Positions 1 to 9,207 of a DNA stretch of 27,405 nucleotides are shown here, piece by piece. Positions within the stretch are counted from its first letter, which is position 1, and each line of letters opens with the position of its first letter. This DNA comes from a virus. A program made the translations under genes and the position numbers. The stretch is taken from positions 1 through 27,405 of IMG/VR virus record IMGVR_UViG_3300006735_000182. The stretch is one strand, 5' to 3'. The notes beneath the pieces are model-generated. The model had not been told where the DNA came from. It searched no databases and saw only the letters and a program-made list of their open reading frames with translations.

Positions 1-187
1 CATCGTAATTAACTTTTGTTACTTGGTTCTCAAGCCTATCCCATTTACGAGCAAGCATCATAAAAGCACCTACACCACCTCGCTTTTTCCAACTATCACC
101 GTAAGATTGCTCAGCTTCATGTAGCCCTTTTACATCTTCGTTTGCTAATGTATTTACTTTTTGTATTATTTTACTTCTAGTACTCAC
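1..187 (-). CDS. Partial Nmad1/DUF1599-like protein (C-terminus off the left edge)
   Basis: The first 62 codons of a protein that runs off the left edge. I chose the GTG at 185-187: it overlaps the upstream thymidylate-synthase-like gene's stop as GTGA and has an AGGAGAG Shine-Dalgarno about 6 nt before it. An in-frame ATG at 206-208 is an alternative start. The visible N-terminus is helical and carries SYGDSWKKRGGVGAF followed by MMLARKWDRLEN (about residues 29-55). From memory this is typical of the phage family DUF1599, also called nucleotide modification associated domain 1, which was named for its co-occurrence with DNA-base modification genes. No catalytic role is known to me. Its place as the last visible gene of the modification cassette agrees with that family name. 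The family call rests on a short N-terminal stretch, so confidence is moderate. Confidence 0.6.
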   Translation of the reverse strand, partial: MSTRSKIIQKVNTLANEDVKGLHEAEQSYGDSWKKRGGVGAFMMLARKWDRLENQVTKVNYD

Positions 188-1167
188 TTCACTCTCCTCT
201 CTAACCATTCTATACAAGCCCTCCTCCAAGCCCTATCCCCTATTAGTTGTGCAAACTTTAATGCAGTGGTCATATCTTTATCTTTCCAGCCTATCCATGA
301 ATCCATCATAGGGGTAGCTGTATTTGTAAGATAAGTATTAGTTAATCCTTCTATTGTATAATCATCAAACCATTTGTACAACTCAGAATCAAAATTATGA
401 GCATTATCTATTAATGGTGGCGAATTATAACTTAGCCCATCTTCAGCTAATAAAAGATAAGGTTCATAATCAGGCTGAAGAGAATACAAGTTTAGTTTTT
501 CTAATACATCTGTATATACATGGAGGTTATTACTTATTTGATAATAAGTACCTATTTTATTACCTGTCATAAGAGCCATATATTCTAATAAAAAAGACAT
601 ATGTACGGCATTCGCTCCATAAGCACCCCAGATCATATCATTACTTCTGTTTACTACACTCATATTAAGGTAACCTTTTCTAGCCCAGAAAAAGACTTGT
701 GTATTACAAGGATAATCTACACCTGTATTTGTTGAAGTTAAATCAACATAAGGATCCCACATACCTATTACAACTCTACGGTCATTGGGGTACTCTACTA
801 ATCTATTTTTAGCTATGTTTAATTGATCTACACCAAAATGTTTTCTCCAACGATATCCGTATGCACCATGAAAAGTAACACCATCATCGCTATAATTATT
901 TATTCTTCCGTTAAATTGGCTAATCCACTCTACATCATTACGACCTGCTAACATCCATAAGCTTTCCATAAAATGAAAATAAGGGTTAGCATCACGTTGA
1001 GGGTAAAACAACACTCTTTCCCAACTGTGTGTGTATTCTGTGCAAACAGGCATTGGAAACTCTAAAGCTTTACCATTTCTAGTGTCTACCTCTACCCCTG
1101 TGTTTTGGATAACCTGTATGCCGTGATATAAAGCCTCACTAACACCTCTACTATATATATTGTACAA
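184..1167 (-). CDS. Thymidylate synthase-superfamily enzyme, candidate dUMP hydroxymethylase
   Basis: A 327-aa enzyme of the thymidylate synthase/dCMP hydroxymethylase superfamily, which transfers a one-carbon unit from methylenetetrahydrofolate to C5 of a pyrimidine nucleotide. Visible landmarks are ESLWML (catalytic-type Glu68), GAYGYRWR (about 101-108), the nucleophile Cys154 in DYPCNTQ, the phosphate-binding VNRSND (172-177), GAYGAN (181-186) and NNLHVY (213-218, equivalent of the His/Tyr that bind the sugar). Asn186 can be aligned with the Asn that selects uracil; hydroxymethylases for dCMP have Asp there. The Trp pair that covers the methylene intermediate in true synthases is replaced by INNYSDD (about 89-95). 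I therefore favour 5-hydroxymethyl-dUMP formation over dTMP synthesis, but a plain synthase cannot be excluded. The start is TTG: a TAG lies just upstream in frame, and AGGAGG sits 5 nt before it. The gene follows the glycosyltransferase after 85 nt. Confidence 0.88.
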   Translation of the reverse strand: MYNIYSRGVSEALYHGIQVIQNTGVEVDTRNGKALEFPMPVCTEYTHSWERVLFYPQRDANPYFHFMESLWMLAGRNDVEWISQFNGRINNYSDDGVTFHGAYGYRWRKHFGVDQLNIAKNRLVEYPNDRRVVIGMWDPYVDLTSTNTGVDYPCNTQVFFWARKGYLNMSVVNRSNDMIWGAYGANAVHMSFLLEYMALMTGNKIGTYYQISNNLHVYTDVLEKLNLYSLQPDYEPYLLLAEDGLSYNSPPLIDNAHNFDSELYKWFDDYTIEGLTNTYLTNTATPMMDSWIGWKDKDMTTALKFAQLIGDRAWRRACIEWLERRVK

Positions 1168-1170
1168 TAT
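1157..1170. promoter_or_regulatory. 14-bp perfect palindrome over the TTG start
   Basis: ATATTGTACAATAT is an uninterrupted 14-bp palindrome that contains the TTG start codon (1165-1167) of the thymidylate-synthase-like gene and lies directly after its AGGAGG ribosome-binding site. It could be an operator-like site or chance in AT-rich DNA; the sequence alone does not decide. Confidence 0.3.
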
Positions 1171-1172
1171 GC

Positions 1173-1178
1173 CCTCCT
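1173..1178 (-). promoter_or_regulatory. Strong ribosome-binding site that decides a TTG start
   Basis: A full consensus AGGAGG on the minus strand, 5 nt upstream of the TTG at 1165-1167. There is no in-frame ATG or GTG between the upstream TAG and this TTG, and the next internal Met is residue 39, inside the enzyme fold. This makes TTG the well-supported start of the thymidylate-synthase-like gene. Confidence 0.7.
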
Positions 1179-1193
1179 ATGGCGAATGAGTTA

Positions 1194-1219
1194 TTATAGG
1201 GTACAAACATACCCTATAA
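1194..1219 (-). promoter_or_regulatory. 10-bp stem-loop in the leader of the TS-like gene
   Basis: A perfect inverted repeat, TTATAGGGTA (1194-1203) and TACCCTATAA (1210-1219), with a 6-nt loop. It lies in the 85-nt gap between the glycosyltransferase stop and the thymidylate-synthase-like start, ending 15 nt before the AGGAGG. On the minus strand no T-run follows, so it is not a classical terminator. It may be an RNA processing, stability or protein-binding element. Confidence 0.5.
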
Positions 1220-1252
1220 GTTAATTGTGACAGTCAGAGCCTAATCGAGTGG

Positions 1253-2248
1253 CTACTCAATGTTTAAGAACTGCCTGTATTGGTTACCTATTATTATAGG
1301 GTCGTGTAATTTAAGAGCATTATACCCATTTTCTCTAATTGATGGTATAGAATCAGAGTAAGCCCCATTGAGTATAGTAGCCAACTCTTCTGCAGATCCA
1401 ACAGCAAAACAATTATAATCAGGCTTCATATCATCAGGTTCGTCAAGTATCCACTTATTATGTATTATAGGAACACATCCTGCGTTCCAAGATTCTAAAG
1501 CTGTGTATTGTGTTCCACCACCATCACCCACTATTTGCGTCATATCTACATTAAACACATAATCTTGCATTAACTTAAACGCAAAATCATTTTCTCTAGG
1601 GTAATGGGCTTTAGATTGTACCCACTCTGGATACTTTGGCACAATTTTAAACCGAGTAAAAATTCTGTTTTCAAAACCTCTTATATTTATTTTCTTATCT
1701 TCAGCTAATAACCTATTAGTATCTAATAATATTTCAGTATGCTTATCAAAATCAATACGCGAAGTACTTACAGCCCCCTTTCTATCAAGGTTAGTATGTT
1801 TAGGAAAAGGTGTATAAGGGTGACGGATAAAGGTTGCTCCCTTAAAAGTTCTTGCACCTATTTGTCTAATAACAACGCACCTTTTAGGGTCTAAATCAAC
1901 AGGTAAGTTTTTTAATTCAGTTGGGTCATGAACAACTATACTTGCACCTATATCGTATAGCATTTGTGTTTCTTCTTTAAACTGCTTTGCCCCAGCGACA
2001 ACTAACTTAATCGTTTCTTTGTACTCGTTGTTTACAATAGTTTTACGATTCTTAGCCTCAGCCATAGAAATATTTCTATAATGTTTACCATAACCAAACT
2101 CACGGCTTTTGCGTTCACTCTTTGGTCTTATCTTAAACAGAGTACACTTAATATCTACGGCATTAAGGGCTTCCATCAAATGATTAGTATAAGTTACCCA
2201 ACCTCCATACGGATTAGGGCTTAAATAAAATAAATCTACATGTGTCAT
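1253..2248 (-). CDS. GT-B fold glycosyltransferase (GT4-like), probably DNA-base modifying
   Basis: A 331-aa protein with the layout of a GT-B, GT4-type glycosyltransferase. The N-terminal half opens with hydrophobic VDLFYLSPNPYGGW (4-17), the usual first strand and glycine loop. The C-terminal nucleotide-sugar half has GGGTQYTALESWNAGCVPI (243-261), which contains the E-x4-G pattern (Glu252, Gly257) that contacts the sugar nucleotide in this family. No signal peptide or membrane segment is visible, so it is cytoplasmic. The ATG overlaps the aGPT-PPlase-family stop as ATGA and has AAGGAC about 8 nt upstream, so the two are probably translationally coupled. Phage glycosyltransferases can modify DNA or cell-surface glycans; the direct coupling to base-modification genes makes DNA the likelier acceptor. 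Donor sugar and acceptor are unknown. Confidence 0.82.
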   Translation of the reverse strand: MTHVDLFYLSPNPYGGWVTYTNHLMEALNAVDIKCTLFKIRPKSERKSREFGYGKHYRNISMAEAKNRKTIVNNEYKETIKLVVAGAKQFKEETQMLYDIGASIVVHDPTELKNLPVDLDPKRCVVIRQIGARTFKGATFIRHPYTPFPKHTNLDRKGAVSTSRIDFDKHTEILLDTNRLLAEDKKINIRGFENRIFTRFKIVPKYPEWVQSKAHYPRENDFAFKLMQDYVFNVDMTQIVGDGGGTQYTALESWNAGCVPIIHNKWILDEPDDMKPDYNCFAVGSAEELATILNGAYSDSIPSIRENGYNALKLHDPIIIGNQYRQFLNIE

Positions 2249-3153
2249 GCTACAGGTCCTTCCAATGTTTTGTTGTAATTTAAAAGTGAATTAAGATGGG
2301 CATCATACTTACTACGAGGTGTACCTTGCCCTAATCTAACTCTTTCATACTTATCCCACTCACATAAGCTATGCTCTATTGTTCGCATGTCTACATTTTC
2401 AATGGAGACTACATTTCTAGTACCCTGTGCAATATCTAATACTTTTTTCATTTCTATATTAGACTGAACAGCAGTTAGTCCTTTGTTAAGGGGTCTATTG
2501 TATAATCTGTTTAACCCTCGTTTTGCTCCTGGACCTGCGTTCGCCCAAGTAAAACGGTCTGTCGCCTCGTCCAGTATGCGTGTGTAGTTGAGATCGGTAA
2601 CCACTTCGTAAGACATAAAGCCCCCTCCACCCCACCCACGATAGGCAGACATCGCATGGTGTAAGGCTTGTAACGACTGAGTGTTGGTCGCAATCTTGGC
2701 AAGCTTTTCTTTGCTTTCCCAAATAGGGGTGAGGAAATGGTCAACTACAACTTCTCCTTTAGGTAACTTTAACCCTTGATTAGTTATAATATATGCCCCT
2801 GTAAAAGTTCGCAACTTCTTAGCCAATCGTTCGGCGATTAATTGCTTAGTATATTCAGGATCCCACTTTGAAGCCCAACCATGAGCCTCAGCAAACTCAG
2901 TCGTACCAACCATTCTAAACAAACAACAGTTAAATATTATTTCGCCATCGGGTTTATTATGGTTTGGGTTTGTCCAGTTCTGACGCATCCATATAGTAAC
3001 CTTATCGTTTTCACGGAAAGGGTTTGTAAATTTATACTCCTGGAGTATTTTATCTTTTGTAAAGGGAGGTGGATCACCAATTACTTTTTTTCGGTAAATA
3101 GCATGTCGCTCATTTATCCAATAAAAGAACCTTTCTAAGTTCTCTATATTCAC
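2245..3153 (-). CDS. aGPT-PPlase / amino acid:DNA transferase family protein (HMUDK helical-domain superfamily)
   Basis: A 302-aa all-helical protein that I recognise as the alpha-glutamyl/putrescinyl-thymine pyrophosphorylase superfamily, described by comparative genomics in phages with hypermodified thymine. Members are thought to replace pyrophosphate on 5-(pyrophosphoryl-oxymethyl)uracil in DNA with another group. Supporting segments are ERHAIYRKK (15-23), then FTKDKILQEYKFTNPFREND (31-50) and KVT; a glycine-rich turn YRGWGGGGFMSYEVVTDL (171-188) reminiscent of helix-hairpin-helix DNA glycosylase relatives; NAGPGAKRGL (205-214); and IEHSLCEWDKYERVRLGQG (259-277). The start is GTG (3151-3153) with GGGAGAG upstream, 2 nt after the preceding stop; the next Met is residue 56. 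Part of the gene (about 2520-2700) is unusually GC-rich. Family call is firm, exact reaction is not. Confidence 0.82.
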   Translation of the reverse strand: MNIENLERFFYWINERHAIYRKKVIGDPPPFTKDKILQEYKFTNPFRENDKVTIWMRQNWTNPNHNKPDGEIIFNCCLFRMVGTTEFAEAHGWASKWDPEYTKQLIAERLAKKLRTFTGAYIITNQGLKLPKGEVVVDHFLTPIWESKEKLAKIATNTQSLQALHHAMSAYRGWGGGGFMSYEVVTDLNYTRILDEATDRFTWANAGPGAKRGLNRLYNRPLNKGLTAVQSNIEMKKVLDIAQGTRNVVSIENVDMRTIEHSLCEWDKYERVRLGQGTPRSKYDAHLNSLLNYNKTLEGPVA

Positions 3154-6778: not shown

Positions 6779-7423
6779 TTACTTTTCTCTCTTAGTCTTC
6801 CAAAAATACTCATCAGTATCGCCCAATCTAGTATTGTTACCATTCTCTACCTGATAAAAAACTGTACTCACTTTAAAGTCGGGATTGATAGGTTTTTCAG
6901 GTGTCAGACTATTATCATATACTCGCATTCTATTATTAGGGTACAAGCAAAACTGTCCATTTTCTAACTCTAATAAGTTAAAAGATTTATGCTCCTCGGG
7001 GTTCTCACTTGTACTATAATCAATCGAGTCGGGATCAGCATGGTAATTATCTATTGTACAAATGTAATATCCTTTTTGTATACCAAAGTCTCTGGTTAGT
7101 ATCTCAAAATCCATTGAGCCAATAAACTGTTTTTGAATAATCGTAACTCCATAATCCATACAGTTCCAAAACTGTAAATTGTTAAGAGGCATATCGGGTT
7201 TTGGTGGTTCTTTAGAAGTAACAAAAGCACTGATTGGTAACTTATCAAACAAAGCACCATAATCAGGTAAGTAAGTTTCAAAGTAAAATGCTCTTCCAGG
7301 AATGGATTTACAAGAAGCCCATACCCCAGCGACATATTCACCAAACCCATCTTCATGGTCTCTTAAATATTCTTTTCTAACCCATACTTTTTGTGCTGGA
7401 AGATTACATATCAACTCTGCCAT
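6779..7423 (-). CDS. Unknown protein upstream of the UvrD-like helicase
   Basis: A 214-aa soluble protein of unknown function. It is rich in aromatic residues (for example VWVRKEYLRD at 13-22, GRAFYFETYLPDYG at 43-56, QFWNCMDYGV at 84-93) and has an acidic middle and a basic C-terminus (FWKTKREK). No signal peptide, membrane segment or nucleotide-binding motif is visible. The ATG (7421-7423) overlaps the stop of the 80-aa gene, with GAGGAG about 11 nt upstream, and its stop abuts the helicase start, so it is transcribed and probably translated together with them. The fixed placement between primase and helicase suggests a replication accessory role, but that is positional only. Confidence 0.75.
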   Translation of the reverse strand: MAELICNLPAQKVWVRKEYLRDHEDGFGEYVAGVWASCKSIPGRAFYFETYLPDYGALFDKLPISAFVTSKEPPKPDMPLNNLQFWNCMDYGVTIIQKQFIGSMDFEILTRDFGIQKGYYICTIDNYHADPDSIDYSTSENPEEHKSFNLLELENGQFCLYPNNRMRVYDNSLTPEKPINPDFKVSTVFYQVENGNNTRLGDTDEYFWKTKREK

Positions 7424-7665
7424 TAATCAACAAACTCCTCTAATGCTGTTTTTAATGAATGAAGATGAACAAATACAGGGGTATCTTCACCAACCCATGC
7501 ACCAATAACATTGTAAGACATCCATTCTTCTGCTTCATCTTCACTCATCTTGTCTCGTTTCATTAAAATTTTTACACATTTAGAGTAATCATAAACAGCG
7601 ACAACGATATTAAATCTGCAACCTGTGCCAATAAAAGCTTTCTCAAATCCATCAGCTAACATCAT
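7423..7665 (-). CDS. Unknown small acidic protein after the primase
   Basis: An 80-aa acidic protein (MMLADGFEKAF to EEFVD). The pattern is alternating strands and helices: a strand-like FNIVVAVYDYSKCVKIL (18-34), then a charged helix KMSEDEAEEWMSYNV (39-53) and VGEDTPVFVHL (58-68). The compact EDEAEEWMSYN segment resembles small phage proteins commonly found in replication operons, but I cannot name the family. It overlaps the primase stop by one base and the following gene by three, so it is part of a tightly coupled set. No clear Shine-Dalgarno is seen, so translation probably depends on the upstream primase. Confidence 0.7.
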   Translation of the reverse strand: MMLADGFEKAFIGTGCRFNIVVAVYDYSKCVKILMKRDKMSEDEAEEWMSYNVIGAWVGEDTPVFVHLHSLKTALEEFVD

Positions 7666-9188
7666 TATATCAAGCCTGAACCTTTGGGTAGGTCGGGAAT
7701 TTTTATTTCAACATCATCAGTGTCAAAATAATCCTGTGGTAAAGACCATACATGTATGCCCTTGTTTTTAATTCTCCAAAACATTTTATCTGCCCCTAAA
7801 TCTCTTAACCTTAATGTTATCTTATTAGAAGTATAATGGTTAAAATCGTTTACAGACAAATGTTTTTTAACATCTTTTATCTGGAAATAAACTCTACCAT
7901 CAACCCATACTGCAACCCCTTGAATAATTTCCTCTTTCTCTTCACCTTTGGCTCTTTCACAACAAAAGGCATGAAGCAAATCTTCAAACTCACCTTTAAG
8001 GGTAGCATCAGGTGGTACTTCTACAATAGTAACTTTATCTAATAAAGCCTGTATTCTTGTTTGCCAAGCCCTTTGACTAATAGTAATCGGGAATTTATTT
8101 ATTTGTGCAACACACTCCCTTTGAAACTGAGTCTGTGCTGTCAACCCACTTGTAGATAATTCAACCCTTTGATCATCTACATTTAATATCCATATAGCAG
8201 GATCACCATCTATTTTAGTTAAGCTACTCAAATCATTACTAACTGTATTCGGACCTACACCATACTTCCGTGTCTTACAAACTTCTTTATCGCAAAAAGG
8301 TTTTATTGGTTGGTCTTCACATTTATAAAAATATTCTTTTTTGTTAAGCTGTTTGATAACAGTACCTACTTCACTATGACTCAAGGGTGGGGAAAAATAA
8401 TCTATGTTATATTTTTGTATTAAAGTTTCCCAATTATTTTCATCAAACCTTCTAGCATAAACACCTAAGTTAAACAGAGCATTGTTGCGTGAACCCTCAG
8501 CAAAACCTTTACTACATAGATGTTGTAAGCATGGTGGACCTTCTTCAAGAACACCCTCTTTTACCCCAAAACTAAATTGTAGCTTCATAAATTCTTTAGG
8601 GGTAATCCTGTTTCTCTTTGCATACTCTATAAAAGCTGTTGTTAACATTGTTATGCCTTTTTCATCAAAAGCATAACGAGTAGTTTTATCTCCTGCGTGA
8701 TAAGGCATATTTAAAAAGTTACCTGTATCTCCTCGCTCTACTAATATAGTAGATTGCTTAGGAAATATCTCACAACCAGAATGACCTAAAGCTGCTGACA
8801 ACTCTGTCATTTTACGTTGCATATCAATAGCTTCAATAGACTCTGTTAAAAATACCCATACATGAGCTCCACCACTTTTAGTCCTGCCTACAACAGCAGG
8901 GATATTATTGTTATGTAAAATATCGCATAATTCTTTATGGTCAATATCATACTTATCAATATCTATTGCACCCCATTGACATTGGTTATCGCTTCGTATT
9001 GGGATAATACCTATACCTGTTCCTCCTGTTAGATGTTCTTTCCACATATCAACAGTAGTAGGCTCTTTTATAACCTTTGCAGTACCTTGTTTTTTACCAC
9101 CTCCAGGACGGCTTGTGTTTACTATAAATGTTCCATGAGCAATATCACTGCCCTTAAACAAGTCAAAAAATTCTTGTGCTAAATCCAT
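7665..9188 (-). CDS. Archaeo-eukaryotic-type DNA primase with C-terminal cysteine cluster
   Basis: A 507-aa primase of the archaeo-eukaryotic (AEP) superfamily, close in pattern to the primases of TOTE-type systems and many marine phages. In 507-residue numbering: the first metal-binding motif WGAIDID (72-78, Asp76 and Asp78), the second motif SGGAHVWVF (105-113, His109), and a third region around GNFLNMPYH (156-164). A helical part with RNNALFNLGVYAR follows. Cys220, Cys225, Cys290, Cys299 and Cys304 form a cluster suited to a zinc or iron-sulfur site, recalling the PriL domain. No helicase motifs are fused to it. I start at the ATG 9186-9188, preceded by GGAG at 6 nt spacing; an upstream in-frame TTG at 9200 overlaps that Shine-Dalgarno. 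It would make primers for genome replication together with the separate helicases. The gene starts 20 nt after a terminator hairpin. Confidence 0.82.
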   Translation of the reverse strand: MDLAQEFFDLFKGSDIAHGTFIVNTSRPGGGKKQGTAKVIKEPTTVDMWKEHLTGGTGIGIIPIRSDNQCQWGAIDIDKYDIDHKELCDILHNNNIPAVVGRTKSGGAHVWVFLTESIEAIDMQRKMTELSAALGHSGCEIFPKQSTILVERGDTGNFLNMPYHAGDKTTRYAFDEKGITMLTTAFIEYAKRNRITPKEFMKLQFSFGVKEGVLEEGPPCLQHLCSKGFAEGSRNNALFNLGVYARRFDENNWETLIQKYNIDYFSPPLSHSEVGTVIKQLNKKEYFYKCEDQPIKPFCDKEVCKTRKYGVGPNTVSNDLSSLTKIDGDPAIWILNVDDQRVELSTSGLTAQTQFQRECVAQINKFPITISQRAWQTRIQALLDKVTIVEVPPDATLKGEFEDLLHAFCCERAKGEEKEEIIQGVAVWVDGRVYFQIKDVKKHLSVNDFNHYTSNKITLRLRDLGADKMFWRIKNKGIHVWSLPQDYFDTDDVEIKIPDLPKGSGLI

Positions 9189-9207
9189 TAGTTTCTCCAA
9201 AAAAGGT

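Follow-up and report, generated by a model that had tools for sequence, protein, structure and literature searches.

What would a phage make with a thymidylate synthase (TS)-type enzyme, a glycosyltransferase (GT) and a helical protein that elsewhere accompanies a DNA kinase, when that kinase is missing? This question is raised by positions 1 to 3153 of IMG/VR virus record IMGVR_UViG_3300006735_000182, a fragment of 27,405 bases (the window, meaning the whole stretch analysed) whose source is probably an uncultivated aquatic phage. We put at about two in three the probability that the cassette makes glycosylated 5-hydroxymethyluracil (5-hmU) in phage DNA, by a four-step route that ends in shielding of the DNA. 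Most likely, the half of a known thymine-modification machine that recognises DNA is retained in the operon, and a sugar-transferring enzyme takes the place of the kinase. The genes concerned, and their conserved upstream neighbour, are as follows:

2245..3153, minus strand: HMUDK_hel protein (PF18723), 302 amino acids (aa), without a P-loop; proposed recognition or base-flipping partner for 5-hydroxymethyldeoxyuridine (5-hmdU) in DNA
1253..2248, minus strand: predicted GT-B, GT4-like glycosyltransferase, 331 aa; proposed DNA 5-hmdU O-glycosyltransferase
184..1167, minus strand: predicted TS-superfamily deoxyuridine monophosphate (dUMP) 5-hydroxymethylase, 327 aa
1..187, minus strand: small conserved protein, N-terminal 62 aa, running off the window edge; whole protein ~108 aa
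3156..3797, minus strand: 213-aa protein, a conserved neighbour directly upstream of the HMUDK_hel gene (2-nt gap)

The preliminary description of this DNA had reported four packed minus-strand genes, and so we found them (open reading frames, ORFs, 3153..2245, 2248..1253, 1167..184 and 187 to the edge), with 4-nt overlaps between the HMUDK_hel and GT genes (2245-2248) and between the TS and small genes (184-187), and an 85-nt gap between the GT and TS genes. The recurrence that it named as a supporting result was likewise observed, the same order HMUDK_hel-GT-TS-small gene-PolA being conserved across many IMG/VR contigs. Since independent contigs carry the same genes in the same order at 60-98% protein identity, and the ratio of nonsynonymous to synonymous substitution rates (dN/dS) is 0.07-0.20 for the cassette genes, indicating purifying selection, the cassette is not a chance arrangement. 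Further along the operon, relatives have a small gene, the gene for DNA polymerase I and one for a nucleotidase of HD type that resembles YuA gp18.

The TS-like label given to the 327-aa protein was borne out by matches to PF00303 (E 7.5e-21) and phrog_5131 (E 1.7e-102), and the protein is nearest to enzymes of the M6 group (42-44% identity; 42% to M6 ORF057). Compared with E. coli ThyA, it keeps C146, R126/R127, R166, S167, D169, N177, H207 and Y209, while the W80 position is absent and H147 is changed to Asn; the pattern is identical in YuA, in Sonora and in the SH-Ab 15599 protein that carries a dUMP hydroxymethylase annotation. Its closest solved structure by sequence is the CMP (cytidine monophosphate) hydroxymethylase 5b6d, ahead of thymidylate synthases. 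Hydroxymethylases specific for deoxycytidine monophosphate (dCMP), such as that behind the 5-hydroxymethylcytosine (hmC) of T4, have Asp at the N177 position, and a retained Asn in this family argues for dUMP over dCMP. The window enzyme has Asn there, not Asp, and so its substrate would be dUMP rather than dCMP; a dUMP hydroxymethylase of the M6/YuA type is well supported by family and residues.

We regard it as highly improbable that this enzyme makes thymidylate only, leaving the DNA unmodified and the cassette degenerate or engaged in another role, such as superinfection defence like that of bacterial TS/5-hmdU-kinase systems. Such a role would have parallels, in that TS and 5-hmdU kinase domains are among the bacterial defence domains newly validated by DefensePredictor (PMC13092281) and TS genes lie beside HMUDK_hel on bacterial chromosomes, but the missing W80 position and the H147N change are those of hydroxymethylases, the genes are under purifying selection, and the linkage to a phage PolA and a deoxynucleotidase-like gene is as in YuA. 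The bacterial pairs themselves, a distant HMUDK_hel (~25% identity) beside a TS-like gene (L186, L188, L191, L192, L195, L196, L203, L204, L207, L218 and others), may be related defence operons, given the validation of such domains.

The second protein was identified through structure alone, because sequence searches against phage records, PDB sequences, Pfam and PHROGs returned nothing usable and no Pfam, PHROG or other family model matched it. Its AlphaFold (AF2) model (predicted local distance difference test, pLDDT, 86.6; predicted template modelling score, pTM, 0.86) matched GT-B enzymes in a Foldseek search of the PDB (best 8xsg, E 3.7e-10), among them the alpha-glucosyltransferase (AGT) of T4 (1xv5, rank 34, E 8e-8), and its fold matches in a viral library include annotated DNA alpha-glucosyltransferases and two glycosyltransferases of phage SP-15. 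Alignment with ten viral relatives revealed two strongly conserved blocks, SRxDFDKHTEI and DGxGxQYTxLE, with R164, K169, D242 and E252 invariant, and these blocks look like the donor-site motifs of GT4 enzymes, with their Arg/Lys and acidic residues. The glycosyltransferase label of the preliminary description thus finds support in the model, by which the protein is predicted to be a GT4-like glycosyltransferase of GT-B fold.

The 302-aa protein matches PF18723 (E 1.6e-46), a family formerly called aGPT-PPlase1, under which name annotated records were found, and now called '5-hmdU DNA kinase, helical domain' (HMUDK_hel). The family assignment of the preliminary description therefore stood under a newer name, and its reading as a pyrophosphorylase or amino acid:DNA transferase did not: by its family match, the protein would be the helical component of 5-hmdU DNA kinases. 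The blocks GPGxxRG and CExDKY are invariant across the window protein and the kinase-partnered proteins of YuA and Sonora, and the invariant polar residues R16, D50, R80, D187, D199, R212, C264, E265, D267 and K268 are common to the kinase and GT contexts. The AF2 model (pLDDT 89) gave helix-hairpin-helix (HhH) DNA glycosylases as its top three Foldseek matches, all weak (E 0.16-1.1, best probability 0.95); a fold of this kind would suit base flipping, though these weak matches are not proof of it. The ADDT profile (PF18724) also gives a weak cross-match to HMUDK_hel, and the two families may therefore be remote cousins.

Might HMUDK_hel instead be the catalyst, activating 5-hmdU by phosphate or pyrophosphate transfer so that the GT displaces the group or glycosylates a side chain through a phosphorylated intermediate? 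The many polar residues invariant in both contexts would fit such a role, as would the family's original name, by which Iyer is said to have proposed a pyrophosphorylase in 2013. We nevertheless consider it unlikely, for no nucleotide-binding motif was seen in HMUDK_hel, its weak fold matches are DNA glycosylases and not kinases, and a P-loop kinase neighbours it in the cultured phages compared. This comparison covers YuA, Sonora, Ab18, RHph_TM26 and Bhz59 (Epa5 and phage Simon were left out): in YuA, Sonora, Ab18 and Bhz59 the gene for the P-loop protein immediately precedes that for HMUDK_hel, in RHph_TM26 a single small gene separates the two, and Pfam identifies the P-loop protein of YuA, gp13, as the kinase PF18748. 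In public records, some P-loop proteins adjoining HMUDK_hel are annotated as terminase small subunit (L133:7414-7983, L136:5243-5980 and other phages), whereas a 5-hmdU DNA kinase is what their sequence and position indicate.

Which partner, then, stands beside HMUDK_hel outside these cultured phages? We fetched 80 HMUDK_hel loci from IMG/VR, where at least 586 exist, and typed them for neighbours together with further loci, which left 54 contigs after clustering at 90% identity. An adjoining glycosyltransferase from one of four families was present in 44 of the 54, namely the window type (6), a long GT4 (15), TAGT (19) and GTx (4); the remainder had a radical SAM enzyme only (4), a kinase-like gene (1) or no partner found (5). 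Three of these last five lack a nearby TS gene, L012 among them, an entry that proved to be an ORF-caller artefact, as the locus really has HMUDK_hel, radical SAM, GT and TS genes. Pfam confirms TAGT, SPASM/radical SAM and FkbM among the partners, the long GT4 matches its Pfam models just below cut-off, and for GTx there is only a sub-threshold glycosyltransferase match in one member. The sole fetched IMG/VR cassette with a kinase-like gene, L108, has methyltransferase-like and sulfotransferase-like genes nearby, judged by eye from their sequences.

The kinase family PF18748 was absent from 28 of 29 such contigs searched as whole records and weak in one, with YuA and Sonora positive, and was absent from the window phage's long relatives G001-G004; no kinase-like P-loop ORF was found in G001, G002 or G004. 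ADDT (PF18724) was absent from 12 related records, where the one signal was a weak cross-match of its profile in G004 to HMUDK_hel itself, with YuA and Sonora again positive.

These results bear on the possibility that the GT only happens to lie among DNA-modification genes and modifies a host surface polysaccharide or a phage protein, in which case the DNA would contain 5-hmdU as such, or else a base that HMUDK_hel forms together with a host kinase. Cell-envelope glycans are common substrates of GT4-like enzymes, and relatives of the window GT at 31-37% identity (L014-L021) have no HMUDK_hel or TS matches nearby. Against this, the position between HMUDK_hel and TS is taken by different GT families, and one of them, TAGT, has an assigned role in glycosylating DNA bases in T6-like phages, where the second glucose on glucosyl-hmC is attributed to it (PMC13390438); the kinase and ADDT are missing; and the HMUDK_hel and GT genes overlap translationally, a 4-nt overlap that recurs with two different GT families. 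We therefore hold this explanation to be improbable, if somewhat less so than catalysis by HMUDK_hel.

The sugar may be tailored further in some lineages, as FkbM methyltransferases and radical SAM enzymes in the relatives suggest: 4 of the 6 window-type contigs also carry an FkbM methyltransferase and 9 of the 19 TAGT contigs a radical SAM enzyme. FkbM-type genes are inserted beside the GT or TS gene (L010:12048-12695, L011, L070, L077), where they suit sugar tailoring and possibly methylate the added sugar. A longer cluster in L013 (G007:38767-44900) comprises HMUDK_hel, the window-type GT, a 263-aa protein, TAGT, radical SAM, a HAD-like protein and TS, which suggests a multi-step sugar-bearing base.

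Taken together, we propose that glycosylated 5-hmU arises as follows. The TS-type enzyme would convert dUMP to 5-hydroxymethyl-dUMP, a step well supported by family and residues; host or phage kinases would bring this to the triphosphate, and the phage polymerase would place 5-hmdU for part or all of T, as in the M6 group; and the GT would use a nucleotide sugar to glycosylate the 5-CH2OH group of this base in the DNA, the product resembling base J chemically but arising by a different route. HMUDK_hel is found with the P-loop 5-hmdU DNA kinase in M6-type phages; here it would be the partner that binds the DNA or flips the base and so presents 5-hmdU to the GT, the least secure part of the route. 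Modified in this way, the DNA would be protected against host restriction and against 5-hmU glycosylases. The idea of a 5-hmdU-based, sugar-bearing thymine replacement made with no kinase, already present in the preliminary description, is supported by the M6/YuA-type residues of the TS protein, the GT-B fold and the lack of PF18748 and PF18724 in the long relatives. More tentatively, and at somewhat less than even odds in our estimation, HMUDK_hel may be a general exchangeable adaptor that flips or presents 5-hmdU in DNA to whichever enzyme neighbours it, a P-loop kinase in M6-type phages or one of four GT families in environmental, probably mainly aquatic, phages.

Several points weigh against the proposal of a glycosylated base. 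The acceptor of the GT is not fixed by a predicted fold, and most GT-B enzymes are not DNA-acting; the glycosylated base is a prediction from sequence, and the sugar and acceptor are putative. The likeness of HMUDK_hel to DNA glycosylases comes from weak Foldseek matches and a non-significant profile alignment, hhalign to MutY being not significant and a PDB profile search empty. The counts from the 54 contigs are not unbiased, since the sample was taken among the contigs closest to the window. An exception among the phages is Acinetobacter phage SH-Ab 15599, in which HMUDK_hel and a hydroxymethylase occur with no PF18748 match, and a one-partner rule is not strict, as G007 (L013) carries the window-type GT and TAGT together and a few relatives have radical SAM only.

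The small fourth protein, seen in full length in L007:12062-12388 (~108 aa), has 26 relatives with 28 invariant columns and lies near HMUDK_hel and TS in the loci typed. No Pfam family matched among these relatives, and the Nmad1-like identity first suggested for it (PF07659, DUF1599) failed three tests, with no match in any of the 26 at E<=1 and an empty search of five related contigs at E<=10. The 213-aa upstream protein is syntenic in many related loci and has no convincing Pfam or NCBIfam match.

As for the phage itself, nearly all window genes lie on the minus strand, with a primase, an SF1 helicase, a DUF932 protein and the cassette, and tail and virion genes further up. The primase (7665-9200) matches the archaeo-eukaryotic primase domain of TOTE conflict systems (PF22548, E 1.3e-18), and positions 6779-7423 encode a 214-aa protein whose PHROG match (E 3.4e-108) bears the label ferredoxin and is counted among auxiliary genes. 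Close or near-identical relatives are G001 (62 kb), G002 (56 kb) and G004 (60 kb), the last of which looks circularly permuted and complete, as its FkbM gene is split between the contig ends. A structural gene has 42% identity to Phage DSL-LC04 and 29-33% to HTVC023P-type pelagiphages and Roseobacter phages CRP-901/902, by which the window phage would be their distant relative. PF18723 had no match in HTVC023P, HTVC027P, 023Pt_psg01 or CRP-901, and neither it, the window GT nor TAGT was found in the nearest named relatives by structural gene (HTVC023P, HTVC027P, CRP-901, DSL-LC04 and others), the GT search having no positive control.

If our proposal is correct, sugar-modified thymine would be widespread among phages of the environment and reached by another route than base J of trypanosomes, and it would go some way to explaining the escape of these phages from restriction and 5-hmU repair; glycosylated 5-hmdU in phage DNA was unreported as of a 2019 paper on 5hmdU phages. 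If the adaptor idea also holds, thymine hypermodification would be a plug-in system, and base-J-like glycosylated 5-hmdU common in phage DNA. The cassette is a direct test of the role of HMUDK_hel, which as a family was annotated first as a pyrophosphorylase and later as a kinase domain, and it offers enzymes that might write sugars onto DNA.

How does this cassette compare with known systems? With Pseudomonas phages M6 and YuA and Stenotrophomonas phage Sonora it shares the TS-type hydroxymethylase, the HMUDK_hel family and a neighbouring PolA, and YuA also has an HD deoxynucleotidase-like gene; these phages have the P-loop kinase PF18748 and ADDT PF18724, and M6 makes an amino-alkyl base, whereas the window type is without both and has a GT inserted. 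As the YuA genes follow the same general order (kinase gp13, HMUDK_hel gp14, TS gp17, gp18, polymerase gp21), the window cassette is a changed form of the M6/YuA-type cluster. The change of HMUDK_hel partner from kinase to GT was not found stated in the literature searched, which excluded Iyer 2013, Lee 2018 and Lee 2022. The glucosylated hmC of T4 and T6 likewise involves a nucleotide hydroxymethylase and a DNA glycosyltransferase, of GT-B fold (AGT) or TAGT, but N177 of the window TS points to dUMP, HMUDK_hel is an extra part, and the window GT has no detectable sequence homology to AGT. Bacillus phage SP-15, with its glycosylated dihydroxypentyluracil, also bears a glycosylated thymine-derived base, and two of its glycosyltransferases are fold matches of the GT, whereas its synthases are of the Thy1 type and it relies on a carbohydrate cluster of 10 genes (PMC5977210). 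Base J of kinetoplastids is, like the proposed product, an O-glycosylated 5-hmU in DNA, but arises by JBP/TET oxidation of T, and Tet_JBP had no match in 12 related records. Finally, the view in the preliminary description that the pathway could not be named and that its product may be new does not fully hold, as TS and aG/PT-PPlase1 with a putative glycosyltransferase were listed among pelagiphage genes in 2022 (PMC9599517). The HTVC023P-type clusters thus share TS and aG/PT-PPlase1 with the window phage; that report, where it treats these genes, names a different glycosyltransferase and does not discuss replacement of the kinase. The window cassette is best read as a glycosyltransferase branch of known 5-hmdU systems.

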